Of a stretch of 64,000 bases of DNA, positions 22,227-62,239 are shown one piece after another. The notes under the pieces are model-generated. The model saw nothing but the letters and a program-made list of their open reading frames with translations. It was not told where the DNA came from and did no database searches. The stretch is taken from assembly GCF_019218295.1 (NCBI RefSeq), contig NZ_JAHUZF010000003.1:448833-512832 (forward strand), read 5' to 3'. A program made the translations under genes and the position numbers. Source of the stretch: Maritimibacter sp. DP1N21-5. GTDB lineage: Bacteria; Pseudomonadota; Alphaproteobacteria; Rhodobacterales; Rhodobacteraceae. Positions within the stretch are counted from its first letter, which is position 1. Every line of letters begins with the position of its first letter.

Positions 22227-22229
22227 CTT
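22210..22229 (+). repeat. attL, left att core at tRNA-Arg 3' end
   Basis: 20 bases, centred on CTCCCCAGCGCGCCA, identical to 62220-62239 in the same orientation; flanking bases differ on both sides (A/G before, A/T after). It contains the 3' T-arm and acceptor strand plus CCA of tRNA-Arg, the classic crossover site for tyrosine-integrase elements. Confidence 0.88.
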
Positions 22230-23557: not shown

Positions 23558-23561
23558 GAAA

Positions 23562-40996: not shown

Positions 40997-41518
40997 TTGG
41001 CTGACCTGGAATATTCGGGCGGGGAGGTCCTCGTCGATCTCTTCGGGAACCCGGTTTTCCGGGTCCTCGGCACGCGCGGTCGGCCGCCCTTCGAGCGGAC
41101 GGACGAAAACGCGAGGAAAGTCAGTATGTTGCTGGCGATGGGTTGGAGCAACGAGCGGATTGCAGGGGTGATCCGGGATCCGCGTACCGGGAAGTCGATC
41201 TCTGTGCCGACGCTGAAGCGGTATTTTAGACCCGAGCTTCAGGTGCGGCTCGTCGCGCGCGACATGCTGATGGCGCGGCAGCTCGAGGTCGCCTTCGCGA
41301 AGGCGGAGGAAGGCAACGTCGGCGCGATGAAGCACTTCCTCCAGCTGGTCGAGAAAAACGACCTAATGCTGGCGGCAAAACGCATGGCCGACGATCTGCC
41401 GGACGAGGACGATAAGCCGGCGGCGGTGGGCAAGAAGGAAGCGGCGCGTCGGGCGGCGCTCGATGCGGTATCCGATGAGGATGACCACCTTCTGACGCCG
41501 GGCAAATGGGCGAACTGA
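40997..41518 (+). CDS. terminase small subunit
   Basis: 173 residues. N-terminal HTH-like region (VSMLLAMGWSNERIAGVIRDP) for recognising phage DNA, a helical middle, and an acidic tail. The start is TTG at 40997: GGAGGT at 40985-40990 is correctly spaced and no ATG is available. Overlaps the large terminase gene by 13 bp. The 74-bp gap before it (40923-40996) is a likely place for cos. Confidence 0.75.
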   Translation: MADLEYSGGEVLVDLFGNPVFRVLGTRGRPPFERTDENARKVSMLLAMGWSNERIAGVIRDPRTGKSISVPTLKRYFRPELQVRLVARDMLMARQLEVAFAKAEEGNVGAMKHFLQLVEKNDLMLAAKRMADDLPDEDDKPAAVGKKEAARRAALDAVSDEDDHLLTPGKWAN

Positions 41519-43227: not shown

Positions 43228-43230
43228 CCT

Positions 43231-44457
43231 TTGGGCATCTGGACACGCATCAAGTCGGCCCTTCAGCCGCGTGTTGAACTGTCGCTGACCGACCCTACCG
43301 GATGGCGTGTTGCCAGCGGGTCGTCGGCCGGAACACCGATCACGGAGAGCTCGGCGATGGCGCTGGCCACGGTCTGGGCCTGCACGAACCTGATCGCAGG
43401 CACGCTTGCGTCACTGCCAGTCGAGATCACGCGCAAGGGTGCGGACGGCCGCCGCGAGGTCCTGGGTGACCACCCATTGTCTCGCGTCTTGCGGGAAGCG
43501 CCGAACGCAGATCAGACCGCGCTCGAGTTCATCGAACATCAGGCCCTTGCCATCGAGCTCTGGGGCAATGGCTTTGCGCGCAAGATCATGGGCGCGACCG
43601 ACAGGGTGATCGGGCTGGAGCCGCTGCACCCGGGGAAGGTGCAGGTCTATCGGGCGTCGGACGGTGCTCTCGGATATCGCTGGACCGATGACCGCGGGAA
43701 GCAACACCAGGCGGGAGAACGCGAGATCGTCCACCTGCGGGGGTTCGGGGGGCATCCTCTTGGCGGGCTGTCGACGCTCGCCTTCGCGCGCAATTCGTTC
43801 GGGCTCGCGCGCCAGATCGACCGCTCGGCGGCGGCGATGTTCGAGAACGGGATGCAGCCGTCCGGGGCGCTCACATTCAAGGAGTTCCTGACGGCCGAGC
43901 AACGCCAGATCGCGGAGACGAGGCTGGTGGAGCGGCACCTCGGTGCGCGCAACGCCGGGCGGCCGATGATCCTCGAGGGCGGGGTGAGCTGGGAGCCGAT
44001 GATGATCAATCCCGAGGATGCGCAGATGCTCGAAGCGCGTCGCTTCTCGGTCGAGGAGATCTGCAGGTTCTTCCAGGTGCCGCCGCATATGGTCGGCCAC
44101 ACGGACAAGGCGACGAGCTGGGGGTCAGGGCTCGAACAGCAGATGCTGGGCTTCCTGACCTTCACGCTCCGGGTTCGGATCAAGCGGATCGAGACGGGTC
44201 TCGAGCGACAGCTCCTGACCCCGGCGGACCGGGCGCGCGGGATCGGGATCAAGTTCAACGTCGAGGGGCTGTTGCGGTCCGACAGCGAGGCGCGGTCGGA
44301 GTTCTACGAGCGCGCGCTGCGCAATGGCTGGATGACGATCAACGAGGTCCGGGCGCTGGAAGGGCTCGAGCCGGTCACAGGCGGCGAGGTGCCGCGCATG
44401 CAGATGCAGAACGTTCCGATCACCGATACGGGCAAGGAGGCAGGGAATGGCCAGTGA
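43231..44457 (+). CDS. phage portal protein, HK97 family
   Basis: 408 residues. Family segments ATVWACTNLIAGTLASLPVEI near the N terminus, PLHPGKVQVYR, ALTFKEFLTAEQ and FQVPPHMVGHTDKATSWGSGLEQQ are diagnostic for HK97-type portals. TTG start at 43231, 3 bases after the terminase stop; no nearby ATG. Forms the 12-mer DNA gate. Confidence 0.95.
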   Translation: MGIWTRIKSALQPRVELSLTDPTGWRVASGSSAGTPITESSAMALATVWACTNLIAGTLASLPVEITRKGADGRREVLGDHPLSRVLREAPNADQTALEFIEHQALAIELWGNGFARKIMGATDRVIGLEPLHPGKVQVYRASDGALGYRWTDDRGKQHQAGEREIVHLRGFGGHPLGGLSTLAFARNSFGLARQIDRSAAAMFENGMQPSGALTFKEFLTAEQRQIAETRLVERHLGARNAGRPMILEGGVSWEPMMINPEDAQMLEARRFSVEEICRFFQVPPHMVGHTDKATSWGSGLEQQMLGFLTFTLRVRIKRIETGLERQLLTPADRARGIGIKFNVEGLLRSDSEARSEFYERALRNGWMTINEVRALEGLEPVTGGEVPRMQMQNVPITDTGKEAGNGQ

Positions 44458-45127
44458 ACAGAAATCCGCGCCGATCATGGAGATCAAGGCGCTCGACGAC
44501 GAAACCGGCGTGATCGAGGGCTATGCCTCGACCTTTGGTGGGGAACCCGACGCCTATGGCGACGTGATTGCCCCCGGTGCCTATGCCGACAGCCTGGACA
44601 AGCACCGGGCCAAGGGCACCATGCCGAAGCTCTTCTGGCAGCACGACAGTCACGAGCCCATTGGGCGCTGGACCGAGATGCGCGAAGACGACCACGGGCT
44701 CCTCGTGAAAGGAAAGCTCAACCTCGCCGTCCGGCGCGGGGCCGAGGCACTCGCGCTGCTCAAGGATGGCGACATCGACGGGCTGTCGATCGGCTACCGG
44801 ATCAAGGAATACTCGGTCGACACCGAGACCAGTGTCTGGACGCTCGAGAAGCTCGACCTGATCGAGGTGTCGGTCGTGTCGACACCCGCGAACGAGAACG
44901 CGACCATCGCCAGCGTGAAAGCGGCGAAGGCGGTTCACGAACTCACCGTAATGCTCAAGGCCGGGGACCGGCTGACAGAGCGGCAATTCGAGACCTGGCT
45001 CAAGGGATTGGGCTTTTCGAATGCGCAGGCGGAGCGTGCCGCGCGCCTCCACCTGAAAGGGCAAGGGGATCTTGCCGATGACGCGGACGATGCACTCGCG
45101 CGTTTCGCGGCGGTGCTCATGGGCTGA
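44447..45127 (+). CDS. HK97-family prohead protease
   Basis: 226 residues. Start of the protease domain IKALDDETGVIEGYASTFGG, catalytic His in FWQHDSHEPIGR, and catalytic Ser in GLSIGYRI. Matures the capsid by removing the N-terminal scaffold of the capsid protein. The last ~60 residues are a variable helical tail. Overlaps the portal gene by 11 bp. Confidence 0.94.
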   Translation: MASEQKSAPIMEIKALDDETGVIEGYASTFGGEPDAYGDVIAPGAYADSLDKHRAKGTMPKLFWQHDSHEPIGRWTEMREDDHGLLVKGKLNLAVRRGAEALALLKDGDIDGLSIGYRIKEYSVDTETSVWTLEKLDLIEVSVVSTPANENATIASVKAAKAVHELTVMLKAGDRLTERQFETWLKGLGFSNAQAERAARLHLKGQGDLADDADDALARFAAVLMG

Positions 45128-45162
45128 GGCCCGACCTAACCACATCATCACAGGAGATTCCG

Positions 45163-46347
45163 ATGTCGGATCCGAAACTGACGCCCGAGCAGCTCGCGGC
45201 GGACCTGAAGAAGGCGCAGGATGATATCCGCGCCAAAGCTGACGAGGCGCTTGGCCGCGCCGAGAAGGGCGAGAAACTGACCGAAGGCCTGAAGGAGCAG
45301 ATCGACGAGGCGCTTCTCAAGATGGGCGAGCTTACCGAGCAGGTCGCTGTGCTTGAACAGAAAGGCGTGCGTGATCCCGGCCAAGGCGCATCGCGGTCGC
45401 TCGGCCAGATGTTCGTGGACGACGAAGGCGTGAAGTCCTTCCTCGACGGGCGTCCGACCAAAGGCAAGGCTGACATGATGGTCAAGGCGACGATCACGTC
45501 GCTCACCACCGACGCCGCGGGCTCGGCCGGTGACGCCATTGCGCCGGCGCGCCTGCCCGGTGTGCAGATGATGCCAAACCGTCGCATGACGATCCGCGAT
45601 CTGCTCATGTCCGGTCGCACCGAGTCGAACGTGGTGCAGTATGTGCAGGAAACCGGGTTCACCAACTCGGCCGCGCCGGTGGCCGAGGGCGCAAAGCGGG
45701 CCGAGTCCGACGTCAAGCTCGAACTCGTGAATGGGAACGTGGCCACGATCGGTCACTACATGAAGGCCTCGCGTGAAGTCCTGAACGACGCGCCGATGCT
45801 CGCCTCGATGATCGACGGTCGCCTGCGCTACGGTGTCGACTTCAAGGAAGAGGTTCAGCTCCTGTCTGGTGACGGCACTGGTCAGAACCTGTCCGGTCTC
45901 GTGACCGAGGCGACGGCGTATTCCGTGCCTGGATCGCTGACTGCAGAGAACCTCGTCGACACGCTGCGGTTCGCCGCTCTGCAGGTGTATCTCGCTGAGT
46001 TCCCCTCGTCCGCGTTCGTCTTGAACCCGATCGACTGGGCCTTCATCGAGACCCTCAAGGACGACATCGGGAACTACATCATCGGCGACCCCCAGAGTGG
46101 CGCGACGCCGACCCTGTGGCGTCTGCCCGTGGTGCAAACGCCCGCGATGACGGTCGACAAGTTCCTGACCGGGGCCTTCGACAGCCAGGCGCAGGTGTTC
46201 GACCGCGAGCAGACCCGCGTCGAAGTGGGTTACGAGAACGACGACTTCACCAAGGGACTGGTCACGATCCTCGCGGACGAACGGCTGGCCCTGGCGGTCT
46301 ACAGGCCCGAGGCCTTCGTCTACGGCGATCTCGGCCGCATCGCCTAA
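45163..46347 (+). CDS. phage major capsid protein, HK97 family
   Basis: 394 residues. N-terminal ~100 residues form a charged coiled coil (scaffold/delta domain), likely removed by the protease; then the HK97 fold with EGAKRAESDVKLELV, FVLNPIDWAFIETLKD and a C-terminal VGYENDDFTKGLVTILADERLALAVYRPEAF. GGAG 9 bases upstream of the ATG. Followed by a strong terminator, as expected for the most expressed head gene. Confidence 0.96.
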   Translation: MSDPKLTPEQLAADLKKAQDDIRAKADEALGRAEKGEKLTEGLKEQIDEALLKMGELTEQVAVLEQKGVRDPGQGASRSLGQMFVDDEGVKSFLDGRPTKGKADMMVKATITSLTTDAAGSAGDAIAPARLPGVQMMPNRRMTIRDLLMSGRTESNVVQYVQETGFTNSAAPVAEGAKRAESDVKLELVNGNVATIGHYMKASREVLNDAPMLASMIDGRLRYGVDFKEEVQLLSGDGTGQNLSGLVTEATAYSVPGSLTAENLVDTLRFAALQVYLAEFPSSAFVLNPIDWAFIETLKDDIGNYIIGDPQSGATPTLWRLPVVQTPAMTVDKFLTGAFDSQAQVFDREQTRVEVGYENDDFTKGLVTILADERLALAVYRPEAFVYGDLGRIA

Positions 46348-46364
46348 GAGCGTCGGTTGATCGA

Positions 46365-46387
46365 GGGGGCGGGAGACCGCCCCCTTT
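46365..46387 (+). terminator. terminator after the capsid gene
   Basis: GGGGGCGG (46365-46372), loop GAGA, CCGCCCCC (46377-46384), followed by TTT: 8-bp GC stem, intrinsic type. Probably partial, since connector and tail genes follow on the same strand. Confidence 0.75.
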
Positions 46388-46418
46388 CCTGAACCGATGA
46401 CATCGAACGGAGGGTTCC

Positions 46419-46682
46419 ATGGCGAAGCAGACTTATGACGTGAAGCGTCCGCACCAGGGTGATCGCTGGTACGCCGTAGGCGAAAAGCGCGTCGCGCAGC
46501 CGGGCGAGGTCGATCACCTCGTCGCACGCGGCGTTCTCGTGCTGCATGGCGAAGACGAAGCGCCCGCAAAACCGAAGGCGGCACCCAAGCCCAAGAACAA
46601 GGCCGTCGTCGCCGAGAAGAACAAGTCCGAGGCGGACCTCCCCGACGATGAGGGTGCGGCCGACGAGGGTGACGCCGAATGA
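46419..46682 (+). CDS. small head-associated protein
   Basis: 87 residues. N-terminal ~45 residues folded (WYAVGEKRVAQPGEVDHLVARGVL), C-terminal half Ala/Lys/Pro then acidic (low complexity). GGAGGG precedes the ATG. Common between capsid and connector genes; function unknown. ATGA overlap with the connector gene. Confidence 0.7.
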   Translation: MAKQTYDVKRPHQGDRWYAVGEKRVAQPGEVDHLVARGVLVLHGEDEAPAKPKAAPKPKNKAVVAEKNKSEADLPDDEGAADEGDAE

Positions 46683-47257
46683 ACCTGAGCCTCGTCGCTC
46701 CTGCAGCTGGCGAGCTGATCTCGGTCGAGGACATGAAGACCCATCTGCGTGTCCTCGAGGAACACGAGGACGAATTGATCGAGGGTTACGTGCGGGCGGC
46801 TGTCGGTCATCTCGACGGGCCGAACGGCTATCTCGGGCGGTGCCTTCTGAACGCTGAGTGGCGGCTCTCGGTCGCGGCGTGGTCCGGGCGTGTCGCTCTG
46901 CCGCTGGTCGACGTGTCCGAGGTGGCGGTCGGTTATGTGGACACCGAGGGCGAGGCGCAGACCGTCGATCCGGTCTACTACGATCTGGTCGATGACAGTG
47001 GCAGGGTCTGGGTGCAGTTCCGATCTGCCTTCGCCTATCCGTCGCTGGATGCGGATCTGCCGCGTCCGGTGTCCGTAACCTTCACCGCGGGGTTTGGCGA
47101 TACCGCCGAGGATGTCCCAATGCCGATCGTGCAATCGGCGCGTCTCCTGGCGGCGCATTTCTACCAGAACCGGGAGGCGGTGGCCGGTGGCGCGATGGCG
47201 GCCATTCCGCTTGGCGTGCAGACCATGTGCGCGCCCTTCCGGCGCAACTTCGTCTGA
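46679..47257 (+). CDS. head-tail connector, gp6-like
   Basis: 192 residues. Contains EDMKTHLRVLEEHEDELIEGYVRAAVGHLDG, the hallmark of gp6/GTA-type adaptor proteins that sit below the portal, and QSARLLAAHFYQNREAV near the C terminus. TGATG overlap with the head-closure gene. Confidence 0.9.
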   Translation: MNLSLVAPAAGELISVEDMKTHLRVLEEHEDELIEGYVRAAVGHLDGPNGYLGRCLLNAEWRLSVAAWSGRVALPLVDVSEVAVGYVDTEGEAQTVDPVYYDLVDDSGRVWVQFRSAFAYPSLDADLPRPVSVTFTAGFGDTAEDVPMPIVQSARLLAAHFYQNREAVAGGAMAAIPLGVQTMCAPFRRNFV

Positions 47258-47646
47258 TGGGCGTCGGGATCGGAAACCTGGACCGCCGTGTGGCGGTCTA
47301 CCGCTACAGCGCGGCTGGCGGTGCCGGGCTCGTCGCGGAAACCCGCAACGCGCTCAACGAGGCGATCCAGCCGGAACCGGCTGCTGCGGTCCCGACCGCC
47401 GCCCCCTTCGTCGAGGCCTGGGCGGCGCGGGAGGACATGTCGGACAAGGAGCGCCTGGCGGACGGTGTCCAGCTCGCCGGGTTGCAGACGCGATGGCTGG
47501 TCGCCTCGACGCCGAAGACGCGGACGATCGCGGCCAATGACGTGATGGTGGCGGACGGCGCCACCTGGAACATCACCGGCGTGAAGGAAAGCCTGCGCGG
47601 CGGCCGTCATCGCCTGCTCGAGATCACGACGGTGGAGATGGTCTGA
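47257..47646 (+). CDS. head closure (head-tail joining) protein
   Basis: 129 residues, beta-rich: NLDRRVAVYRYSAA start and GATWNITGVKESLRGGRHRLLEITTVEMV end are typical of the SPP1 gp16/HK97 head-closure family. The start ATG overlaps the previous stop by one base. Confidence 0.88.
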   Translation: MGVGIGNLDRRVAVYRYSAAGGAGLVAETRNALNEAIQPEPAAAVPTAAPFVEAWAAREDMSDKERLADGVQLAGLQTRWLVASTPKTRTIAANDVMVADGATWNITGVKESLRGGRHRLLEITTVEMV

Positions 47647-48119
47647 TGGAGTTCGACCTCAAGTTCGAAGGCGGGCGCGAGCTCGAGAAGATGCTCATGG
47701 ACCTGCCGCACACCGTCGCGCGATCTTCGGCACGCCGGGTCCTGCGCAAGGCGCTCGAGCCTGTGAAGGCGCAGGCCGAAGCGAACGCCGCCGACGATCC
47801 GGCGACGGCCGCGCATGACCTTCATCGGTCCATCGGGATCACATCGCGGTCGAACACACGAGGCGGAAAACGCGATGCCGGGAACGAGGTGTCGATGCAT
47901 GTCGGCGTGCTCACTTCGATCCACCAGGATCGCAAGCCGGAACGGAAGCCCTACGCGGCCGCGATGGTGAACGAGTTCGGCAGCCACAAGATGCCGGCGC
48001 ATCCCTTCATGCGGCCGGCCTGGGACGCGAAGAAGCGCGAAGTCTGGGACATCATGGTCGAAGAAATGCGCCGGGATGTCATGCGGGCCGTGCGCCGTTT
48101 CATGGCGCGTGGCCGATGA
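47646..48119 (+). CDS. HK97 gp10-family protein
   Basis: 157 residues. EFDLKFEGGRELEKMLMDLP at the N terminus and HKMPAHPFMRPAWDAKK near the C terminus are diagnostic for the HK97 gp10 neck/tail completion family. ATGA overlap with the next gene. Confidence 0.92.
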   Translation: MEFDLKFEGGRELEKMLMDLPHTVARSSARRVLRKALEPVKAQAEANAADDPATAAHDLHRSIGITSRSNTRGGKRDAGNEVSMHVGVLTSIHQDRKPERKPYAAAMVNEFGSHKMPAHPFMRPAWDAKKREVWDIMVEEMRRDVMRAVRRFMARGR

Positions 48120-48520
48120 AGGCGGCGCTGACCTCTCTCCTGCTCGCGGATCCGGACCTCGAGGCGCTGGTCGGGACGCGGGTCCACTGGCTGACGCTTC
48201 CGCCGGGTGAGGCAGGCGCGCCCTACCTCATCCTGCAGGAGATCAGCGAGGTGGAGCCGATGCACCTCGAGGGGCCCACGGGCCTTCGGTTCGCGCGGCT
48301 TCAGACGGATGCCTGGGGTGAACGGCTCGCGGACGCAGTGGCGGTCGCGGATGCAATCGAGGACCTGCTCAATGGATATGCCGCGGTGTCCGGCGGCATC
48401 CGGTTCGAGCGGATCACCAAAGAGATGCGGCGGGACATAGGTCCCGTCGATGCCGACGGCACGAGGATCCTGTCCCGCGTGTCGATGGATTTCGAAGTCG
48501 TCTGGAGCAAGGAGACCTGA
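48116..48520 (+). CDS. tail terminator, DUF3168 family
   Basis: 134 residues. LLADPDLEALVGTRVHWLTLPPGEAGAPYLILQEIS is the typical DUF3168 beginning; ends with SMDFEVVW. Caps the tail tube and joins it to the head. Confidence 0.9.
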   Translation: MKAALTSLLLADPDLEALVGTRVHWLTLPPGEAGAPYLILQEISEVEPMHLEGPTGLRFARLQTDAWGERLADAVAVADAIEDLLNGYAAVSGGIRFERITKEMRRDIGPVDADGTRILSRVSMDFEVVWSKET

Positions 48521-48521
48521 C

Positions 48522-48953
48522 ATGGCAGACGCGAAAACGGGTTATGGAACCACCTTCAAGCGTTCCGATACCGGCCTGTCCGGTGGTGTGATGACGGCGA
48601 TCGCCAAGGTGCGCAGCCTGACCCCCGCCAAACTGTCCCGGGGCACGAAGGATGTGACGCATCTGGAAAGCCCGGGCGGATACCGCGAGTTCATCACGGA
48701 CCTGCGTGATGGCGGCGAGTTCTCGGTCGAGCTCTACCTCGGTGCGACCGATGCCGCCTATGACGAGCTGCTCGTCGATTTCGCGGATGACGATCCGGGC
48801 TACTACGAGATGGAGATGAGCAACGGCGCCGTCTGGGGCTACGCCGCGTTCATCACGAACCTCGAGCCTCCGACCATCAACGTCGACGGCGAACTCATCG
48901 TCTCGGCCACCTTCAAGGTCACCGGCCAGCCCAGCTGGACGGCGGGCACCTGA
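48522..48953 (+). CDS. major tail tube protein
   Basis: 143 residues, beta-rich, starting ADAKTGYGTTFKRSDTG and ending TATFKVTGQPSW-like (SATFKVTGQPSWTAG). Matches the short tail-tube proteins of siphophages and gene transfer agents. Codon 1 follows the tail terminator stop by one base. Confidence 0.85.
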   Translation: MADAKTGYGTTFKRSDTGLSGGVMTAIAKVRSLTPAKLSRGTKDVTHLESPGGYREFITDLRDGGEFSVELYLGATDAAYDELLVDFADDDPGYYEMEMSNGAVWGYAAFITNLEPPTINVDGELIVSATFKVTGQPSWTAGT

Positions 48954-48976
48954 GTTCACGGAAAGAGGAGATCTGC

Positions 48977-49339
48977 ATGGGCAAGGGAATGGACCCGCGT
49001 TCGCGCAAGACGTTCGAAGCCGACGGCAAGACCTGGACGCTTCAGTTCACCACCAATGCCCTCGTGGAGCTCGAGGAGGCCGTCGGAAAGAAGATCGACG
49101 CCTTCCTCGAAGCCGAGAGCCATTCGCTCAAGGATCTGCGGACCATGTTCTGGGCGGGGCTCATCGAGCACCACCCGGAGGTCACCCAGAAGCAGGCCGG
49201 TGACATCATCGATGCCGCCGGCGGGCTCGAGGCGATCATGGGCATCATCAACGGGGCGATGACCGCTTCCCTGCCAGAGGCCGATGCCGAGGACGGGTCC
49301 AAGGGCGGTGCCGTGGGAAACGGAAAAGCGGCGGCCTGA
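48977..49339 (+). CDS. tail assembly chaperone, short (G-like) form
   Basis: 120 residues. RSRKTFEADGKTWTLQFTTN and ALVELEEAVGKKIDAFLE resemble GTA/phage tail chaperones. Six codons before its stop lies the slippery heptamer GGGAAAC; a -1 shift there would join it to the next frame as a 226-residue protein, like lambda G-GT. AAGAGGAGA precedes the ATG. Confidence 0.85.
   Translation: MGKGMDPRSRKTFEADGKTWTLQFTTNALVELEEAVGKKIDAFLEAESHSLKDLRTMFWAGLIEHHPEVTQKQAGDIIDAAGGLEAIMGIINGAMTASLPEADAEDGSKGGAVGNGKAAA
49315..49321 (+). promoter_or_regulatory. programmed -1 frameshift site
   Basis: G GGA AAC in the zero frame (GTG GGA AAC GGA AAA GCG GCG GCC TGA), a classic X-XXY-YYZ heptamer. After slipping, translation continues CGG AAA AGC GGC GGC CTG AAC TGG into the downstream tail gene without a stop. 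Lambda uses GGGAAAG at the same place. Confidence 0.82.
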
Positions 49340-49656
49340 ACTGGGCCGCCTTGTGGCAGGACTGGACCGGGGCCGGGTTTCCTCCCGGCCAGTTCTGGCA
49401 CATCACGCTGCGCGAATACCGCGTGATCATGCAGGGGGCGTCGGCGCGGTTCGATAGGGAACGTGCCCTCGTCCAGTACCAGGCGTGGTTGTCAGGCCAG
49501 CTGACCGCCATCGCCACGCATTCGCCGGGATCCTACCCGGCACCCGAGAAGATCATCGACACCGGGAACGGCCGCCGCGCGGCGCAATCCGATGACGAGA
49601 TCGAGCGCATGATCCGTTTCATGCACACCAGCACAACCGGAGAGATCATCCAATGA
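49321..49656 (+). CDS. tail assembly chaperone, T-like extension reached by frameshift
   Basis: 111 residues when read from the slip site; the C-terminal part (WQDWTGAGFPPGQFWHITLREYRVIMQGAS) resembles phage tail-chaperone extensions. A TTG at 49351 could start it alone but has no ribosome site, so frameshift expression is more likely. It ends in an ATGA overlap with the tape measure gene. Confidence 0.8.
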   Translation, partial: RKSGGLNWAALWQDWTGAGFPPGQFWHITLREYRVIMQGASARFDRERALVQYQAWLSGQLTAIATHSPGSYPAPEKIIDTGNGRRAAQSDDEIERMIRFMHTSTTGEIIQ

Positions 49657-52600
49657 AGGCGCTTGTCGGCATGCTGCGCGCTGTCCTGTCGCTTGAGACA
49701 GGGGCGTTCGAGAAAGGGGCGGACGCCGCGGCCAAGCGGACAGCCATGCTCCAGCGCAGCATGACCGGCTTCGGGAAGTCGATGCGCAATGTCGGGGCCG
49801 GGCTGACGGCCGCGATCACGGCGCCGCTGGCCGGGGTCACGCATGCCGCGACGAAGGCAGCGGATGCGATGATCGACCTCGACAACCAGGCACGGATTGC
49901 CGGCGTCGGGATGCAGGAGTTCAAGGTCCTCGCGCTATCGGCCTCCGTCATGGGCATCGAGCAGGAGAAGCTCGCCGACATCCTGAAGGATGTGAACGAC
50001 AAGGTCGGCGACTTCCTGCAGACCGGCGCCGGTCCGATGGCAGATTTCTTCGAGAACATCGCACCGAAGGTCGGGGTCACGGCAGACCAGTTCCGGTCAC
50101 TGAACTCGGCCGATGCGCTGCAACTCTATATCTCGAGCCTCGAAAAAGCCGGTGTCAGCCAGCAGGAGATGACCTTCTACATGGAGGCCCTCGCGTCCGA
50201 TGCGACGGCCCTCATCCCTGTCTTCCGCGATGGCGGTTTTGCCATCGACGAGATGACCAGAGCCGCCTCTGCGATGGGGCTCGCCCTGGATGAGGATGTC
50301 GTCGCGGCGGCCCGACTGTCGCGACAGGAGCTCCAGATCGTCGGCGAGATCCTGAGGACGAAGCTGCAGGCGAGCCTCGTTGGACTCATGCCCGTGTTCA
50401 CCCAGTTCGCCGAAGCGCTGGTGCCTGCCTTCACCTGGCTCACCGACAAGGTGAAGGACCTGTCCCAGTGGTTCCAGGACCTGTCGCCACGGGGGCAGAA
50501 GCTCGTCGCGATGAGCACAGCGCTGGCCGCCGCGCTCGGACCGCTGGTGGCCGGGATCGGGCTGACTGTCATGGCGCTCGCTCCCCTGGCTGGTCTCCTG
50601 CTCGCGGTCCTGTCTCCCATGGGACTGCTCGTTGCGGGTGCGGCGGTAGCCGGGATCGCGATCGCGCTGAACTGGGACCGCATCCGGGAGGCGACCGCGC
50701 GGCTTTTTGCGGCCTTCAGCGAGACCTTTCCGGCCGCCGCGCAGTATGTGCGCGATCTTGTCATGAACGTCGAGCAGGCTTTCGCGGGGATCCAACTGGC
50801 GATCACGAACGGGATCACAGCGGTGAAGGCGGCGTTCGATGGGGACTGGGGCACGGCGATCACAGCGGCCAAGACGGCAATCGAAGGCCTCGCATCGTTT
50901 GTATTGAACATGAACCCGCTAAAGCCTCTCGTCGACAAGATCGCCTCATCCGCTGTGGAAATGGCAATGGAAGGTCGACGCGCTGCAACAGACTTCACGA
51001 AGGAAATAATCGCGGGGCTGCTGCCGGTCGTTCAAGATTCTGTGGCTGTCATCTCGGACCTCGGGGCAGAACTAGCTGCCGAAATAGCGTCGTTCGGTCA
51101 GGACCTCTGGAATGCCGCCGTAGACGTCGGCACCAACATCGTGGAGGGCATCAGAACCGGGATCGCGAATATTCGTGAGAAACTTCGTATTGACGTGTCC
51201 GAGCTTGCCGACCTCATGCCGAAGTGGATTCGAGACAAGCTGCAAATCAGGTCCCCATCAAAGGTCACCACCGTTATTGGTGGTCAGGTCGTCGAAGGCC
51301 TCGTGTCGGGTCTCGAAGGGGGTCAGGGTTCCGTCCGTCGCGCCATCGAAGGCATGTTGACCGGGGTCGAGGACACGGCCGATCAGGCTCAGGTCCTCGA
51401 GGACAAGCTCCGTGACGCGGCGCGCGCTGGCGCCGACCTGGGCACGACCGGTGCTGCCGGTGCGCGCGAAATGACCGCGGAGCTGTCCGACGCCGCCCGT
51501 GCGGCGCAGACCTATATGGACGGGCTTCGGTCGAGCACGCGCAGCATCGGGACCTCGTTCCTGCAGGATGCGGTGTCGAACCCCGGCTCGATGTTCCAGA
51601 ACCTCTGGAGCAACATCAAGTCGACGGCAGGGGAGGCCCTTTCGGGCGCGATCTTCAACCCGGCCGGCTTCGGCGCTGGCTTCGCGACGGCGGCGCAGTC
51701 GGTGTCTTCCGGGCTGGCCGGGCTCGCCTCGGGTGGCGGGATCGCGGCGCTCGGCACGGCGCTGTCGGGGGCCATGCCCTTCATCGGTGCGGGGATCGCG
51801 GCGTTCAACCTGATCAAGAACTTCTCGAAGACCGAGCAGATCGGGACGGGGCTCAAGATCGGGATCGGTGGCGGTCAGGTCCAGGGCTCGTCCTACGATC
51901 GTTACAAGCGCACGACCTTCTGGGGCCTGTTCAAGCGCGAGTATGATCAGGACAAGTCGTTTTCCTCGTCGATGCGGAACATGCTGCAGGGTCAGGTCAA
52001 CGCCGTTCGCAAGACCATCGTCGGTGTCTACGAAACCCTCGGGGTGACCGTGCCCAACTCACTGATGAACCGGGTGCGGATCCAGATCACGAAGATCAAG
52101 ACCGAGGGGCTCAGCAAGGAAGAGGTCTCCTCGGCCGTCCAGAAGATCTTCGACCGTTACAGCGATGCGCTCAGCAAAGCCGTCGCCAAGATCACCACGG
52201 CAGCCGCGCAGGCCCTGTCGGGCGTCCAGATCATCCTCGAGCCGCTCGGCATGGCGTTCGACCTGTTCGGCGGCGTCGCGGGCAAGGCCGGCAAGATCGA
52301 CCTGAGGCGCTTTGCCTCGGCCGCCCAGTCGCTTACTACGCTCGCCGGCGGTGTCGATGCGCTCGCCACGAAGACCGGCGCGTTCTTCGAGTGGTTCTTC
52401 ACTGACGAAGAGAAGCTCGATTATATGCGGTCGCGGATTTCCGAGACGTTCGGCAAGCTCGGGCTCGCGATCCCGGAGACCGACACCGCGTTCAAGGACC
52501 TGGTCCTCAGTCAGAACCTGATGACCTCGTCGGGGCGGAAGGCCTACGCGGCGCTCATCGAGATCGCGCCGGTCTTCGACCAGGTGACCGATGCGACGGA

Positions 52601-52847
52601 CGCCATGCGGGCGTCGGCGCTGTCGATGCGGGCGGCCTATGGCCTCGACGAGGGGCGGTTCGCCACCAGCTGGCAGGCAAAGCTCGCCCACGAGATGCAG
52701 AACGCCGGGCGGTTCACGGCTGACACGCTGGGCGCGCAGAACGCCGAACTGGCCCGCCAGACCGAGATCCTGCTCAGCGTCGAGAAGCTGCTCCTGCGGT
52801 CGACCCGCAGTGCCGAGGACGCCCTTTCCATGTCGCAATATAGCTGA
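49653..52847 (+). CDS. tail tape measure protein
   Basis: 1064 residues. N-terminal helical region (MLRAVLSLETGAFEKGADAA), two long hydrophobic stretches around residues 290-335 (LVAMSTALAAALGPLVAGIG and following), and ASGGGIAALGTAL-like segments later. Sets tail length; at about 1.5 angstrom per residue in a helix this gives a tail near 160 nm, an estimate. A slight change to AT-richer codons is seen around 50.9-51.3 kb, perhaps a recombination patch. Confidence 0.93.
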   Translation: MKALVGMLRAVLSLETGAFEKGADAAAKRTAMLQRSMTGFGKSMRNVGAGLTAAITAPLAGVTHAATKAADAMIDLDNQARIAGVGMQEFKVLALSASVMGIEQEKLADILKDVNDKVGDFLQTGAGPMADFFENIAPKVGVTADQFRSLNSADALQLYISSLEKAGVSQQEMTFYMEALASDATALIPVFRDGGFAIDEMTRAASAMGLALDEDVVAAARLSRQELQIVGEILRTKLQASLVGLMPVFTQFAEALVPAFTWLTDKVKDLSQWFQDLSPRGQKLVAMSTALAAALGPLVAGIGLTVMALAPLAGLLLAVLSPMGLLVAGAAVAGIAIALNWDRIREATARLFAAFSETFPAAAQYVRDLVMNVEQAFAGIQLAITNGITAVKAAFDGDWGTAITAAKTAIEGLASFVLNMNPLKPLVDKIASSAVEMAMEGRRAATDFTKEIIAGLLPVVQDSVAVISDLGAELAAEIASFGQDLWNAAVDVGTNIVEGIRTGIANIREKLRIDVSELADLMPKWIRDKLQIRSPSKVTTVIGGQVVEGLVSGLEGGQGSVRRAIEGMLTGVEDTADQAQVLEDKLRDAARAGADLGTTGAAGAREMTAELSDAARAAQTYMDGLRSSTRSIGTSFLQDAVSNPGSMFQNLWSNIKSTAGEALSGAIFNPAGFGAGFATAAQSVSSGLAGLASGGGIAALGTALSGAMPFIGAGIAAFNLIKNFSKTEQIGTGLKIGIGGGQVQGSSYDRYKRTTFWGLFKREYDQDKSFSSSMRNMLQGQVNAVRKTIVGVYETLGVTVPNSLMNRVRIQITKIKTEGLSKEEVSSAVQKIFDRYSDALSKAVAKITTAAAQALSGVQIILEPLGMAFDLFGGVAGKAGKIDLRRFASAAQSLTTLAGGVDALATKTGAFFEWFFTDEEKLDYMRSRISETFGKLGLAIPETDTAFKDLVLSQNLMTSSGRKAYAALIEIAPVFDQVTDATDAMRASALSMRAAYGLDEGRFATSWQAKLAHEMQNAGRFTADTLGAQNAELARQTEILLSVEKLLLRSTRSAEDALSMSQYS

Positions 52848-52855
52848 GGTAGACG

Positions 52856-53743
52856 ATGTACGTCGGCAAGCCCATCGCCCTCTCACTGGTTTCGGTCAGC
52901 GAGGCCGAGGATGATGCTCCCCTTTTCAATCCGGCGACGACCTATGCGCTCGGCGACTTCGTGATCGATGCGGGCGTCGTCTATGTGTCCAGCATCGACG
53001 GAAACCTCGGGTTTCAGCCCTCGGAAGAGGTGCAGGAGCTCGAGGGCGCACGGTGGATCACCGTGGGTGCCACGAACATCCGTCGGTTCCTCGATGGCAT
53101 CCGGTCGTCGCGCACGACGGGGGATACGCCGCTCGTGCTCGAGGTGGAAGCCGTGGATGGTTTCAACTCGATCGGGCTTCTGGGTCTCGAGGCGACCAGG
53201 ACAACAGTCGAAGTCATTTCAGGAAGTACCGTTCTCGAAACCCGGGAAGTCTTGGCTGGGCCCGTTCCGGTCGACAACTACTGGGACCTGCGAAACACGG
53301 TGTTCAATCCAATTCTGCGCCGAAAGGTGCTCCAAGGCATGGCAGGGTTCGCCGGCGCGCGGATACGGGTCACGCTCGAGGGCCCGGCGCCGGCGCTCGG
53401 GCTTCTCCTCGCCTGCCGTGCGGTCAAGTTCGGCGACACGCTGTTCGCGCCGACAACGCGGATCCGAAGGAAGACCTTCGCGACCTATTCTACCAGCTTC
53501 GGGATCACCAAGGCCACGCGTCGGCCTACGGCCCATGACACCACCTATACCGTGCGCTGCGCACAGGCCGGGTTCCATGGAATCGACCTGATCATGGATG
53601 AGATCGATGGGCTCGAGGTGCTGACCTGGGCGACCGAAAACAGGCCTGAGCTCATCAACTACGGTTATCTCAGTCTGGACGAAATGCCGGTCGAGATTCC
53701 CAAAGACTACGTCTTTCAAGCCGTCAACGCAGGAGTGATCTGA
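52856..53743 (+). CDS. tail tip/baseplate protein, unrecognised
   Basis: 295 residues, beta-rich; starts MYVGKPIALSLVSVSEAEDD. Residues ~20-60 (NPATTYALGDFVIDAGVVYVSSID) look like a small carbohydrate-binding-type module found in phage tails. Place after the tape measure suggests a distal tail or adsorption part. One-base overlap with the next gene. Confidence 0.7.
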   Translation: MYVGKPIALSLVSVSEAEDDAPLFNPATTYALGDFVIDAGVVYVSSIDGNLGFQPSEEVQELEGARWITVGATNIRRFLDGIRSSRTTGDTPLVLEVEAVDGFNSIGLLGLEATRTTVEVISGSTVLETREVLAGPVPVDNYWDLRNTVFNPILRRKVLQGMAGFAGARIRVTLEGPAPALGLLLACRAVKFGDTLFAPTTRIRRKTFATYSTSFGITKATRRPTAHDTTYTVRCAQAGFHGIDLIMDEIDGLEVLTWATENRPELINYGYLSLDEMPVEIPKDYVFQAVNAGVI

Positions 53744-54459
53744 TGCCCTATAGCGCTCTCGAGCCCTATGACACCGAGAACCTACCGGATCCGGAGTCCC
53801 CGGCGACCTACCATGAGAACTTCGATGCTCTCGTGACCTGGATCGTTTCCGAACTGGTGCCCAAGTCGAACCTGAATTTCGACTGGCTCGCAGGTGCTAT
53901 TGGCGGTGATACGGAGACCATTCTCGACGCGCTGGGTACCTTTGCGATCATGCCCATCGGAATGCCGTTCCCCGTCTGGGATCACCTGACCGGAGCGGTT
54001 GTTCCGAGCAACGCGGGCACTCAGAAGTTCATCAAGCTGACGGCGGGTCTGACGGGTGCCGGGCAGTTTAACGAGGGCCTTCTGGCCAGCGAGAGCGTTA
54101 CCGGGTCCGCGCCCTTGGTCGTTGCGACCGCGCAGATCGTCGGAGGTCCGATGACCGGGCAGACCGTGAGCCTGATCAACACCGAGGGCCGCTACATCAT
54201 CGCGGGCACCACATCCGGTGTCGTGCGCATGGATCAGATGCAGCAGATCACCGGGACACTGCCGGATAACGCGTGGGGCGGGATTTCGGGAGCAAGTGGC
54301 GCTTTCTCGCGGGTCGCTGGATCTAACAGCCGGGGCGCGACAGGCTCTGGCGGAGACAACAACCTTTCCTTCAATAGCGCCAACTCCCCGAACGCGAGAA
54401 CCGGAACCGATACCCACGGCAAGGATATATCAGCGACTTTCTACATGAGGGTCATCTGA
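53743..54459 (+). CDS. tail fibre/collar-like protein
   Basis: 238 residues. FAIMPIGMPFPVWDHLTG and INTEGRYIIAGT resemble phage tail-collar proteins; the C terminus is Gly/Ser/Asn-rich (GSNSRGATGSGGDNNLSFNS) and ends with TFYMRVI. Predicted host-binding tail part. One-base overlaps both sides. Confidence 0.72.
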   Translation: MPYSALEPYDTENLPDPESPATYHENFDALVTWIVSELVPKSNLNFDWLAGAIGGDTETILDALGTFAIMPIGMPFPVWDHLTGAVVPSNAGTQKFIKLTAGLTGAGQFNEGLLASESVTGSAPLVVATAQIVGGPMTGQTVSLINTEGRYIIAGTTSGVVRMDQMQQITGTLPDNAWGGISGASGAFSRVAGSNSRGATGSGGDNNLSFNSANSPNARTGTDTHGKDISATFYMRVI

Positions 54460-55388
54460 TGCCCTACGCTATTTCCGGCAAGGTTAGCACCTATGAAATC
54501 GCGGGCGGGATCACCATTTCGGACGCTCAGTATGCGGCTGCGCTCGCTGGCATGACCAACGCTGCGGACCCGAAGCAGGTCTCCGTTTCCGGGGGGGTCA
54601 TGTCTCTGATCACGCCATCGCTGCCCATCACGTCCAGTCTCACAATGCAAGCAGCGACGACGTTGCCGAACATCACCGGAGGGTCCAGACCGCCCGTAAA
54701 CACCGGGCTGGCGCGTCATCCTGACGGCGGCTGGATTGTGGGCGATGATGGTAGGGTGCAGGGTGGAACTACCTTTGATGCGGGCTTGGTCCACTACAAC
54801 GATGGCTATGTGCAGCAAAGTCGGACGAGGCTCGCAACGCTGGGCGTGGGGGACAACAAGTTTTCCGTGCAGGGCGTCGCGGTTCACGGTGGCTCAGTTT
54901 ATGCCGTCGCCAAGGACACGGACGGCACCGGCACTGTCATCATCGAGGTTGAGCTGTCCGACTGGTCCCTAGTGCGGCAGATCGACGTGCCCGACGACAC
55001 CAATGGCCTCGCCGTTGACTACGACCGGGGGCAATTTCTGACGTTGGATGATGCGGGCGTTCTAAAACGTCGCCCGCTGTCGGATGGAGCGCTGACATAC
55101 CAATACCCCGCCCTCGGCGTGGGGTCTCCCGATATGCTGCACTACCTCGGCGGCGGCAAGATACTGATCACCTACGGCCCGAACGGAACTTCCGGCCTTG
55201 CGCTCGTTGCGGACATTTCCACGGGATCGATCGTCCGCGAGCGCCTGCTTACCATGTCGGGGGCCGACGCCATTGAGGGTGCGGCGGTTCACAACGGCAC
55301 ACTCTACCTGAACAACGACGCGAACTTTCACTACGGCAACCCGGAGCTGAACCGGTTGCTCGAATACGACGTGTCCGGGCTTCTCTGA
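54459..55388 (+). CDS. tail-associated beta-propeller-like protein
   Basis: 309 residues. First ~60 residues resemble tail fibre N termini; the rest shows repeated four-strand motifs (GVAVHGGSVYAVAKDTDG, GLAVDYDRGQFLTLDD, MLHYLGGGKILITYGPNG, GAAVHNGTLYLNND), i.e. a propeller like SMP-30/gluconolactonase folds. A receptor-binding or glycan-binding role is inferred from place and fold. Confidence 0.68.
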   Translation: MPYAISGKVSTYEIAGGITISDAQYAAALAGMTNAADPKQVSVSGGVMSLITPSLPITSSLTMQAATTLPNITGGSRPPVNTGLARHPDGGWIVGDDGRVQGGTTFDAGLVHYNDGYVQQSRTRLATLGVGDNKFSVQGVAVHGGSVYAVAKDTDGTGTVIIEVELSDWSLVRQIDVPDDTNGLAVDYDRGQFLTLDDAGVLKRRPLSDGALTYQYPALGVGSPDMLHYLGGGKILITYGPNGTSGLALVADISTGSIVRERLLTMSGADAIEGAAVHNGTLYLNNDANFHYGNPELNRLLEYDVSGLL

Positions 55389-55397
55389 CACCGCGAC

Positions 55398-55445
55398 ATG
55401 ACCACCTCCGAACTCTCGGAATACGCGGCGCTTATCGCGCCGTAG
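55398..55445 (+). CDS. 15-codon mini-ORF, possible remnant
   Basis: ATG at 55398 encodes MTTSELSEYAALIAP and stops at 55445, in the 126-bp gap between tail and lysis genes. No good ribosome site. The helical sequence looks like the start of a longer protein, so this may be the remains of a gene. Confidence 0.3.
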   Translation: MTTSELSEYAALIAP

Positions 55446-55514
55446 ACCCCGAACACCATCGTTTCCCGCATCATCCGGGCGCCCGTCGCGCACCGGTACC
55501 AGAGGAGAATTGCA

Positions 55515-56156
55515 ATGCGCCCGATCACCGAGATCATCGTTCACTGCACGGCCACGCGCGCCGACTGGTGGGCATCGAAACCGACCAGCGCGAAGGTGGC
55601 CGAGATACGGCGCTGGCACGTCCAAGATCGCGGATGGCGCGACATCGGCTATCACTACCTGATCGACCGGGACGGGACCGTGGCGACCGGCAGGCCGCTC
55701 GCGCAGGTTGGTGCGCACACGCAAGGGCACAACACCGGCACCATCGGCATCAGCCTGTTCGGCGGGCATGGTTCGAGCGAGAACGACGCCTTCGAGGAAC
55801 ATTTCACGCCGGAGCAGGACGCTGCGCTGCGCAAGCTGATCGCGGGGCTGAAGTCCGAGTTCGGCATCACGAAAGTGTCCGGGCACAACCAGTATGCCGC
55901 GAAGGCCTGCCCGGGCTTCAACGTCCCGCGCTGGCTGGAACGCAAGACGGCGGCCCGTTCGACCGTGGCGCAGTCCAAGACCGTGCAGGCCGGCGCCGCC
56001 GGGCTTCTCGCGACCGTGACCACGGGGGCGACCGCCCTCGGCTCGCTCGACCGCACAGCCCAGATCATCGTTGCGACTGCCGTGGTGATCGCCGGGGCGG
56101 CGTTCCTGTGGGTCATCCGCGACCGCGTGAAGAAGTGGGCGGCCGGGGTAAAGTGA
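55515..56156 (+). CDS. N-acetylmuramoyl-L-alanine amidase (endolysin) with C-terminal membrane segment
   Basis: 213 residues. Amidase_2/T7-lysozyme-type domain: zinc ligand His in IIVHCTAT, GYHYLIDRDG, VGAHTQGHNTGTIGISLFGG, and the His/Cys pair in GHNQYAAKACPG. Residues ~160-200 are hydrophobic (TAQIIVATAVVIAGAAFLWVI), an added membrane anchor. Cuts the peptide from glycan during lysis. AGGAGA precedes the ATG. Confidence 0.92.
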   Translation: MRPITEIIVHCTATRADWWASKPTSAKVAEIRRWHVQDRGWRDIGYHYLIDRDGTVATGRPLAQVGAHTQGHNTGTIGISLFGGHGSSENDAFEEHFTPEQDAALRKLIAGLKSEFGITKVSGHNQYAAKACPGFNVPRWLERKTAARSTVAQSKTVQAGAAGLLATVTTGATALGSLDRTAQIIVATAVVIAGAAFLWVIRDRVKKWAAGVK

Positions 56157-58918: not shown

Positions 58919-59635
58919 CTAATCCAACTTCGCCGCATAGGCCCGCAAATCGATCATGGGCACGGTAGCGACCGTCTGTAGCCTCGACATCAGTTCCAAT
59001 AGAAACCGAGTGACGGGCTTCGTTCGTCTGTCAAACAAGTAGACGCCGGCTTCATTTGTCCAAAAGCTCCCCTCATCCGCAACGCAGCCAAGGTCAAGGC
59101 GTTCTTCTGCGGGTCCATTTTCGAGATGCCCCGTTAGGGTGTCGCCTAGGGCGGGACTCCATTTTGCGCCAAGGGTCAAAATGCCACCTATGATCGGTGT
59201 CAGGGCCTTTGCCTTCTTAGTGCCGTCGATAGTTGGGATCGGGAGCGAGGTTCGGTGCAATCCGCGGACAGAGGCGACCTTATCCTTGGCATACTCGAGG
59301 TTTTTCAGGTTCAGATCCTGCTTCGACTCGAACACTGCGTAGACGCTCTCAGCCGGCACAACATGCTTATCTTTGAACGTGAACAAGAGTGGCGTGTACT
59401 GACGGTCATGAATGACAACGTCTATTTGATCACTGAATGCGCCATTACTGTCGACCACAGTTGCTTTGATGGCGTGGTATCTGCGAGGTAGGTATTTGTT
59501 GAACAGATCAATCCAGATTCCTTCGGTAGCGTCTCCAAGGTCAGTAGGGTGACCGAGGGTTGCTCGCGCACGCTGAAGGTCGGAGCTTACTGAAACACTG
59601 AGCTCATCAAGGAGAGCGGGAAGAGACCAGTTCAT
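58919..59635 (-). CDS. DUF6602-like protein with nuclease-type motif
   Basis: 238 residues. SDQIDVVIHD (Asp72) and AVFESKQ (Glu103, Lys105) are spaced like a PD-(D/E)xK nuclease core; PAESVYAVFE is the family's conserved segment. DUF6602 proteins occur near predicted nucleotidyltransferases and restriction-like genes. ATG at 59635 forms an ATGA overlap with the nucleotidyltransferase stop, so the two are translationally coupled; an ATG 18 bases upstream is possible. I infer it is the effector of the pair; not proven. Confidence 0.66.
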   Translation of the reverse strand: MNWSLPALLDELSVSVSSDLQRARATLGHPTDLGDATEGIWIDLFNKYLPRRYHAIKATVVDSNGAFSDQIDVVIHDRQYTPLLFTFKDKHVVPAESVYAVFESKQDLNLKNLEYAKDKVASVRGLHRTSLPIPTIDGTKKAKALTPIIGGILTLGAKWSPALGDTLTGHLENGPAEERLDLGCVADEGSFWTNEAGVYLFDRRTKPVTRFLLELMSRLQTVATVPMIDLRAYAAKLD

Positions 59636-60390
59636 ACTACGATTTGGTTCCAATTGGTGGCTCGCCGTGCAACGGATGCGGCAGAGGCGACTGCTCGTTT
59701 CTCCTCCAAGGTAAGTTCTTCCGAGATTACATTGTTTGTGTTGGCGGGATCGATGAAAGTAGCCGTTTCGATGTGGTCACGGATATAGGCAAGTGTTGCC
59801 AAGAAATTTTCAGAAAGGTGCCCGACTTTGCGACCTCGGCAGGCTTCGATCGTTGCGAGTTCTAGGTAGAACGAAGGAAACTTAAGCCCTTTTTGATTTC
59901 GCCAAGCCTTCACGAGCATTATTTCTTCGGCGCGACCCGAATTGCGAACTGCGTTTATGTGGCTGACTACATTCGTTTGCATCCATGTCTGTGCCTTTCG
60001 GCGGTATAGACTGTGGAATTGGCCGCTGGGCGCTTGCCGACGGGCAGGCACAACGTCGACCTCGTAGGGTCCCACTTTGATCCCAATTGATACGTTTTGA
60101 GGTCGCGGATTAAAGCCTTCGTTCCGCAGTCGATGGAAAAGTGAACTATAGATCTGCGAGAGACTTTCGGAGACACTGCTCGAAAGAGATGCAAAAATGT
60201 CGATGTCAGTGCCTCCATGGATGGCGGTCCCTTTCGCGAATGAGCCACTTGGCTCCATGCTGACTAGGGACCCGCCTGCCCATCGAAGCAGCGCTGGCGC
60301 CAATACTTCCTGGACTCCTCGAGCTGGTGAATTGGGCCCTGTGTCCACGCGAATTCTATTAAGGATTTGGCGCAGATAAATGTCAGACAC
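59632..60390 (-). CDS. CD-NTase-like nucleotidyltransferase
   Basis: 252 residues. Catalytic motif SGSFAKGTAIHGGTDIDIF (GS and Asp-x-Asp), third Asp in YEVDVVPA, OAS/SMODS-type helical segment IMLVKAWRNQKGLKFPSFYLEL, and a C-terminal DPANTNNVISEELT segment seen in cGAS/DncV-like and related enzymes. CBASS enzymes of this type make cyclic oligonucleotides on infection. Start GTG at 60390 is preferred: GGGAG lies 7 bases upstream, while the ATG at 60456 sits deep inside the thermonuclease frame. Confidence 0.76.
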   Translation of the reverse strand: MSDIYLRQILNRIRVDTGPNSPARGVQEVLAPALLRWAGGSLVSMEPSGSFAKGTAIHGGTDIDIFASLSSSVSESLSQIYSSLFHRLRNEGFNPRPQNVSIGIKVGPYEVDVVPARRQAPSGQFHSLYRRKAQTWMQTNVVSHINAVRNSGRAEEIMLVKAWRNQKGLKFPSFYLELATIEACRGRKVGHLSENFLATLAYIRDHIETATFIDPANTNNVISEELTLEEKRAVASAASVARRATNWNQIVV

Positions 60391-60812
60391 CCTCGTGCTC
60401 CCAATTGATAAGTTCCATGCTTCAAGATGTCCTTTAGCCAAGCGTGCGTTCCGCACCAGTCGTAACGCTGATCCGGGAGCCAGACGACCGTCAAACCTTC
60501 GTCGATGAGAACTTGGCCTGCCGTACGCCCGTCAGCCAAGCGGAGTTTGACGAGAGGTCGGCCAGAATCGTCGCGCACGCCGCTGTCTTCAATCGCCACG
60601 ACATTCAGGAGAAGCTCCGAGAGTCGGGCCGCCGACCTTACACCAAAGTCGTGCTCAGCAGGGCACTTGTCGCGAGGAGACAGTTCTGGCGTGTCCACAC
60701 TGGAAACGTAAGGAGCGCCGTCGCCCAGAAGGCGGAGCAGCTGGCCGTCGCAGCGAACTGTGTCGCCATCGTAGACGAAGAGACTGGCGCAGGTGATTAG
60801 CAGGTCTTGCAG
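60264..60812 (-). CDS. thermonuclease (SNase-like) homologue with extended or rebuilt 3' end
   Basis: 182 residues. Staphylococcal-nuclease-type active site: VYDGDTVRCDGQLLRLLGDG and SVDTPEL (Asp, Thr, Glu), then RSAARLSELL and GRPLVKLRLADG, LIDEGLTVVW and YDWC. No ATG/GTG/TTG fits; CTG at 60812 has AGGAG 6 bases upstream and starts the domain exactly. After YDWCGTHAWLKDILK the frame runs on 55-60 codons over the start of the nucleotidyltransferase gene (127-bp overlap), which looks like a lost stop: the original gene end was probably replaced when the NTase/DUF6602 cassette arrived. Confidence 0.7.
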   Translation of the reverse strand: MQDLLITCASLFVYDGDTVRCDGQLLRLLGDGAPYVSSVDTPELSPRDKCPAEHDFGVRSAARLSELLLNVVAIEDSGVRDDSGRPLVKLRLADGRTAGQVLIDEGLTVVWLPDQRYDWCGTHAWLKDILKHGTYQLGARGCLTFICAKSLIEFAWTQGPIHQLEESRKYWRQRCFDGQAGP

Positions 60813-62219: not shown

Positions 62220-62239
62220 TCCTCCCCAGCGCGCCACTT
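62220..62239 (+). repeat. att core, right end of the prophage and left end of the next element
   Basis: Exact 20-bp copy of 22210-22229, containing the 3' 17 bases of tRNA-Arg; the rest of the tRNA is absent. Marks attR of the 40-kb prophage and, in the tandem reading, the attL of the second element. Confidence 0.88.

Follow-up and report, generated by a model that had tools for sequence, protein, structure and literature searches.

The endonuclease NucC is listed, in excerpts of two reviews, as an effector of both cyclic oligonucleotide-based antiphage signaling systems (CBASS) and type III CRISPR, and as responding to 3'3'3'-cyclic tri-AMP (cAAA) (PMC10419184, PMC9704534), while a passage of a third review assigns it to type III CBASS as well as to type III CRISPR and speaks of "several subtypes" of CBASS (PMC10952713). 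Type I CBASS is described in the first of these excerpts as a cyclase plus one effector with no accessory gene (PMC10419184). The closest described relatives of the locus analysed here are the CBASS of Escherichia coli MS115-1 (CdnC, HORMA, TRIP13, NucC) and Pseudomonas aeruginosa ATCC 27853 (CdnD, HORMA, NucC), with components as given in PDB titles. Our locus lies in a 64,000-nucleotide stretch of Maritimibacter sp. DP1N21-5 (contig NZ_JAHUZF010000003.1, positions 448,833 to 512,832; hereafter the window) and consists of a gene for a short cGAS/DncV-like nucleotidyltransferase (CD-NTase), the putative CBASS cyclase, overlapping a gene for a DUF6602 protein that is, with near certainty, NucC. 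We predict from sequence that the pair is a minimal, type I-like CBASS with NucC as its effector.

Compared with the E. coli and P. aeruginosa systems, the window module shares the NucC effector (49-51% identical) and has a cyclase of common fold and common cAAA-type residues, but it is without a recognised HORMA or TRIP13 gene, and its cyclase is about 65 residues shorter and falls in a tree group apart from CdnC. The NucCs linked to type III CRISPR in Vibrio metoecus and Serratia share the nuclease family and, according to the source excerpts, activation by cyclic triadenylate (cA3), but there the signal is made by Cas10 and not by a CD-NTase. A Rhodococcus type II-like CBASS (L117; nucleotidyltransferase, ThiF, Mov34/MPN, DUF6602) also shares the NucC effector, and differs in its ThiF and Mov34/MPN genes, which are presumably Cap2/Cap3-like, and in its cyclase, which is far off on a long branch. 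Both families of the pair are held in PADLOC-DB and had been modelled by 2023 (PDLC00803 and PDLC00745); the matches are near full-length and nothing essential differs, although a model match is not a functional proof. The parts and the principle are already known, and the pair belongs to a known kind of bacterial immune system. As far as the retrieved text of the searched literature extends, no description of the short-cyclase/NucC pair was found, which is not proof of its absence from print.

Identity of NucC and the short cyclase

The original prediction held that DUF6602 is not an established CBASS effector and that the protein would be a new effector type if it senses the cyclic nucleotide. 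We rejected this, as the reviews cited above list NucC among CBASS effectors and the protein is NucC by PADLOC models, PDB sequences and predicted structure. Its Pfam DUF6602 match (1.8e-28) was accompanied by matches to the PADLOC NucC models of 2e-94 (PDLC00745) and 3.1e-53, and its clear best PDB sequences were solved NucCs, those of P. aeruginosa (6q1h, 5.4e-74, residues 2-235) and E. coli (6p7o, 5.3e-70), with further matches to those of V. metoecus (6uxf) and Serratia (7zgv). An AlphaFold model built from an alignment of 36 sequences (predicted local distance difference test score 90.5) matched the solved structure of cAAA-bound NucC with a template modelling score of 0.92, and ranks 1 to 14 were all NucC. 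R52, Y80 and T224 align with R53, Y81 and T226 of E. coli NucC, which we take to be cAAA-pocket residues. The D...ExK core proposed for this protein was confirmed as D72, E103 and K105, which are conserved in relatives and align with the solved NucCs, including the site of Serratia D83 and E114, mutants of which lost activity according to an excerpt of the source (PMC13060164). The identity of DUF6602 is settled in this setting. In two plasmid records that carry the pair (L110, L111) NucC is annotated as "DUF6602 domain-containing protein" and the cyclase as "nucleotidyltransferase" or "hypothetical protein", and such systems are easily missed by name because of these labels; among HORMA/TRIP13-type records, some label NucC DUF6602 and another labels it NucC.

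The identity of the upstream protein is also near certain. It carries the GS, DxD and third-aspartate set that had been read from its translation (SGS 48-50, D62/D64, D112) together with lid residues T139 and H144, and S48, G49, S50, D62, D64 and D112 are kept in all 82 short cyclases compared (the window protein, those of 80 related loci and that of one viral contig, L095). The 253-position PADLOC Cyclase model PDLC00803 gave a match of 3.8e-86, the best solved relatives by profile are CdnC and cAAA-making CdnD enzymes, and CdnC and CdnD also head the Foldseek list, ahead of the first CCA-adding enzyme, with CD-NTases heading the VIA list. The CD-NTase-like assignment made earlier was borne out by these results.

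The two genes overlap, as originally described: the junction reads GTAGTATGAAC, with the TGA stop of the nucleotidyltransferase inside an ATGA whose four bases are common to both genes (Table 1), an arrangement that suggests translational coupling. The open frame of the cyclase extends back to 60456, and the GTG at 60390 is likely its start because the relatives in the alignment begin at the same place. Directly upstream, and overlapping the cyclase start in a different reading frame, is an SNase-like frame (60264-60698, minus strand). The Pfam SNase match of this frame is weak (0.014, under cut-off), and its 3' end may have been cut off on arrival of the module.

Conservation of the pair and its predicted signal

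A one-genome-per-species scan with the cyclase alignment gave 110 relatives, of which the best 80 were taken as loci. A NucC frame was found directly downstream and on the same strand in 77 of these 80; the loci were fetched with the cyclase alone, so this is the frequency of NucC given a short cyclase. One of the three exceptions (L094) stops at a contig end. With L095 added to the 77, there are 78 pairs, and in 65 of them the NucC frame starts before the cyclase stop. Fourteen named phyla are represented among the 77 loci, with 51 in Pseudomonadota, 12 in Bacillota and one without phylum assignment, many of the 80 loci being metagenome bins whose phylum labels can be wrong. With 1489 relatives of the cyclase (E <= 1e-5) and 3839 of NucC (E <= 1e-10) counted, and 77 of 80 adjoining, the gene pair is not a matter of chance. 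It is conserved as a unit, in keeping with the possible minimal CBASS-type module of the original prediction; neither of the two outcomes named there as refuting it, a fold of minimal nucleotidyltransferase (MNT) or tRNA type and a lack of conservation, was observed. The NucC frames of L046 and L055 look broken.

Other samples gave smaller numbers. PDLC00803 matched 11 of 292 genomes of the order, and only two at better than 1e-80, the window's own and L003, which also has NucC; in L008 a 99-aa cyclase piece adjoins NucC. In a sample searched from the NucC side, 9 of 398 genomes matched: three with an adjoining short cyclase (the window, L101, and L105, whose cyclase is broken into two frames), two with HORMA and TRIP13 (L102, L104) and four (L106-L109, the last three weak matches) with neither partner recognised in the short stretch examined. 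Three plasmid regions were opened among the 25 plasmid matches of the cyclase, and two of them have NucC. A tblastn search of NucC against 50,697 phage records gave no match, and a single-protein scan of viral contigs found no relative; profile scans of viral contigs found L095, with the short cyclase and NucC, and five other NucC contigs, one of which (L100) carries CdnC, HORMA and TRIP13 by model.

Cyclases of clades C and D that make cA3 have Ser or Thr ahead of the GS motif and a lid Thr plus His, while Gln at the second lid position goes with the product cAAG (PMC13424991, section 6). The window cyclase shows the former pattern, with S48 before GS and with T139 and H144 at the positions of the CdnC and BcCdnD lid residues in the alignments; S48 and T139 are found in 82 and H144 in 81 of the 82 short cyclases. 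Each active-site or pocket position of NucC is conserved in between 74 and 79 of the 79 partner proteins. Motif rules point to cAAA as the probable product, a reading that draws on residue features of both proteins. The halves of the module are thus matched, the cyclase carrying cAAA-linked residues and NucC answering cAAA.

No HORMA, TRIP13, Cap2 or Cap3 gene was recognised beside the pair among the window genes (open reading frames, Pfam, PADLOC), which for Cap2 and Cap3 agrees with the first reading of the stretch. A HORMA reference gave no match in the 77 short-cyclase/NucC loci (up to 6 kb on each side) and, over the 86 loci L015-L100, matched only L062 and L100. A TRIP13 reference matched strongly in L062, L099 and L100 and weakly (6e-8 to 9e-6) in L015, L047, L048 and L049; this check used one reference each, and Cap2/Cap3 were not sought by reference in the relatives. 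We also took 75 upstream and 75 downstream neighbour frames by a crude longest-frame rule and scanned 148 of the 150 (the two of L049 are copies of those of L048). Among the families listed (top 25 of 135 PADLOC, top 25 of 85 Pfam) none matches more than 4 of the 148 neighbours, and a single accessory gene could lie among the families beyond these. The families listed include restriction enzymes, integrases, resolvases and DRT genes, a defence and mobile-element context.

The window pair thus has the composition of type I CBASS, with a cyclase, one effector and none of the sought accessory genes recognised. The type III pattern, in which HORMA and TRIP13 accompany the cyclase, is absent, neither gene having been recognised next to the pair and the HORMA model having found nothing in the strain's genome. 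Because no accessory gene was recognised, the cyclase itself would likely be the phage sensor, for which there is precedent in a staphylococcal CdnE that binds phage RNA, as given in an excerpt of the source (PMC10686824). An accessory-free cyclase paired with NucC would be a simple system in which to study the sensing of phage by CBASS cyclases.

We give a probability of roughly 0.88 to the reading of this short CdnC-like CD-NTase and NucC as a minimal, type I-like CBASS. Infection by another phage would lead the cyclase to make cAAA, which would bind NucC trimers and bring them together as active hexamers, by analogy with characterised NucCs; the hexamers would then shred the cell's DNA before new phage is released, and the cell would die. 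Because the module lies between prophage genes and the likely attachment site, it may protect the lysogen from rival phages.

Several observations weigh against this reading. The Pfam SMODS match to the cyclase reaches 21.8 bits against a cut-off of 26.5, and NCBIfam CBASS cyclase models, which are equivalog models of other cyclase groups, give 54.4 and 42.8 bits against a cut-off of 200. The cyclase is 19-25% identical to solved CdnC and CdnD in structure alignments, so applying the lid rule to it means extrapolating far. The cyclase of L028 has Arg at the lid His position, NucC pocket positions vary in L022, L046, L080 and L086, the catalytic Lys varies in L082, and four alignment rows have gaps at NucC T224. 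Two of the 80 loci (L062, L078) have a SAVED-type nuclease effector beside the short cyclase, and in a Thioclava plasmid (L112, the third plasmid region opened) the 8.6 kb examined contain a short cyclase but no NucC. The correlation between cyclase and NucC distances (r 0.81, n=79), expected for co-inherited genes, comes partly from shared ancestry. Finally, the literature searched, to the extent of its retrieved text, gave no biochemistry or infection data on this or any short-cyclase pair.

A different explanation is that a gene elsewhere in the genome supplies an accessory protein, of HORMA/TRIP13 type or another kind, that activates the cyclase. According to the titles of 6u7b, 6p8v and 6p8u, the structures of characterised CdnC and CdnD relatives include HORMA partners. 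Four plasmid records (L113-L116) also carry NucC together with genes for an AAA ATPase, a small protein and a CdnC-like CBASS cyclase, which is the layout of HORMA/TRIP13 operons, although HORMA and TRIP13 were confirmed by model only for L100 and not for these four. We nevertheless consider the explanation improbable, as the HORMA model, which found both of two genomes known to carry HORMA, had no match in the 7-contig genome of our strain, and the HORMA reference matched none of the 77 paired loci. The sole TRIP13 match in the genome is a 669-aa open frame at 1.6e-8, and the same search matches in all 14 control genomes.

We regard it as very unlikely that NucC answers cA3 from a type III CRISPR complex and that the adjoining cyclase does something else. 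Source excerpts do describe NucC as a type III CRISPR effector responding to cA3 (PMC8682760, PMC9704534), but no Csm1-type Cas10 match was found in the strain's genome (other Cas10 families were outside the search), the catalytic residues of the cyclase are intact, and its gene overlaps nucC here and adjoins it in nearly all loci. Just as hard to credit is a toxin-antitoxin system in which the nucleotidyltransferase is an antitoxin of MNT type or modifies tRNA. In its favour are an archaeal CCA-transferase match that is weak (9.1e-7, far under cut-off) and the CCA-adding enzymes in the Foldseek list, which start at rank 32 (5e-9), much the same level as CdnE and CdnB entries. Against these stand the CdnC and CdnD entries and CD-NTases heading the two lists, the conserved cAAA-type lid residues and the NucC partner; by fold rank and lid residues, a tRNA-type or MNT nucleotidyltransferase is unlikely. 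None of the 50 VIA matches listed is a CCA-adding enzyme, although one could lie beyond that listing.

NucC across CBASS types

In a quick, unrooted cyclase tree, 40 short cyclases formed one group (support 94, not starred) beside 7 CdnC of HORMA/TRIP13 operons; the 40 were taken from 82, seven of them by name and the others by random draw from a list that omits L066, L072, L081 and L084, and the tree carries a long-branch warning. Two NucC trees used 45 and 39 of 79 rows (four named, the rest random, drawn without L046, L051 and L055) plus 12 and 10 further rows, long or near-identical rows being dropped for the second. Six of the seven HORMA/TRIP13-type NucCs lie inside a mostly alphaproteobacterial set of two-gene NucCs, with L104 elsewhere. 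Forcing the seven together was rejected (log-likelihood 119.9 lower, approximately unbiased test p-AU 9.5e-41), the group being defined by gene content and chosen for testing after the first tree. The starred branches require at least two label changes, and the cyclases of L104 and L102 lie outside their loci. Because the HORMA/TRIP13-linked NucCs are not one clade, NucC has apparently crossed from one CBASS type to another on two or more occasions, the unrooted trees leaving the direction of exchange undecided. This pattern suggests that CBASS types exchange effectors as cassettes.

We tentatively raise, as something we would not bet on, a further reading in which NucC resides mainly, and probably arose, in its pairing with the short cyclase. 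Phage would be sensed directly by this accessory-free cyclase across the 14 named phyla, and HORMA/TRIP13 operons would have taken NucC from the pair at least twice. If true, the NucC systems that are best known would be regulated latecomers, derived from a minimal immune module that has gone largely unnoticed.

Two other arrangements were observed. SAVED-PD-D/ExK effectors replace NucC beside the short cyclase at 4461-6759 of L062, which carries a distinct CdnC-HORMA-TRIP13 set on the opposite strand as well, and at 5992-8224 of L078, and effectors are thus swapped within the short-cyclase family. In L006 (1339-3084) NucC directly follows a longer CD-NTase (about 336 aa) with no HORMA/TRIP13 match in the short locus examined, another accessory-free NucC arrangement.

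Genomic setting of the module

Table 1. Coordinates of the module and of the integrated element around it (positions in the window).
Feature	Position	Strand	Basis
Short CD-NTase (CBASS cyclase), 252 aa, GTG start	59632..60390	-	Profile, fold, residue comparison
NucC endonuclease (Pfam DUF6602), 238 aa, ATG start	58919..59635	-	Profile, fold, residue comparison
4-nt ATGA overlap of cyclase stop and NucC start	59632..59635	-	Junction sequence; overlapping frames common among relatives
GGGAG, 7 nt ahead of the GTG start, candidate ribosome-binding site of the operon	60398..60402	-	Inferred from sequence
20-nt repeat at 3' end of tRNA-Arg (22150-22226), likely left attachment site	22210..22229	+	Exact repeat
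Second copy of the 20-nt repeat, likely right attachment site	62220..62239	+	Exact repeat
Prophage structural and lysis genes (terminase, portal, protease, capsid, neck, tape measure, amidase)	41506..56156	+	PHROGs matches

The two copies of the 20-nt repeat enclose a prophage, with a repressor and integrases to the left of its structural and lysis genes, the cyclase/NucC module and an AbiD-like gene. Because it is placed between the prophage genes and a copy of the tRNA-Arg repeat, the module is probably part of an integrated element and travels with the prophage. The true borders of the element are uncertain, as an integrase at 62447 lies outside the right repeat copy, a third exact copy is present on another contig of the genome (C6, 2102889-2102908), and our contig ends where the window ends. 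No tRNA was found within the 20 kb examined around the third copy. A comparison with the right-hand side gave no shared 13-mer that would indicate where the integrase at 26662 or that at 25169 attaches.

An AbiD/Abi_2 abortive-infection gene (61113-62096, plus strand; Pfam 9.8e-51, PADLOC AbiD 1.4e-63) is a neighbour of the CBASS pair. A 41-nt direct repeat, 88% identical (57639-57679 and 60904-60944), flanks a MASE1-like gene, the NucC/cyclase pair and the SNase-like frame, and could mark an insertion. Just inside the tRNA-Arg end of the element, an AAA ATPase gene (22700-24992, minus strand; PADLOC best match AriA, 7.9e-26) is overlapped by a downstream gene that gave no match to any Pfam, PADLOC or NCBIfam model, and the two possibly form a second defence pair.
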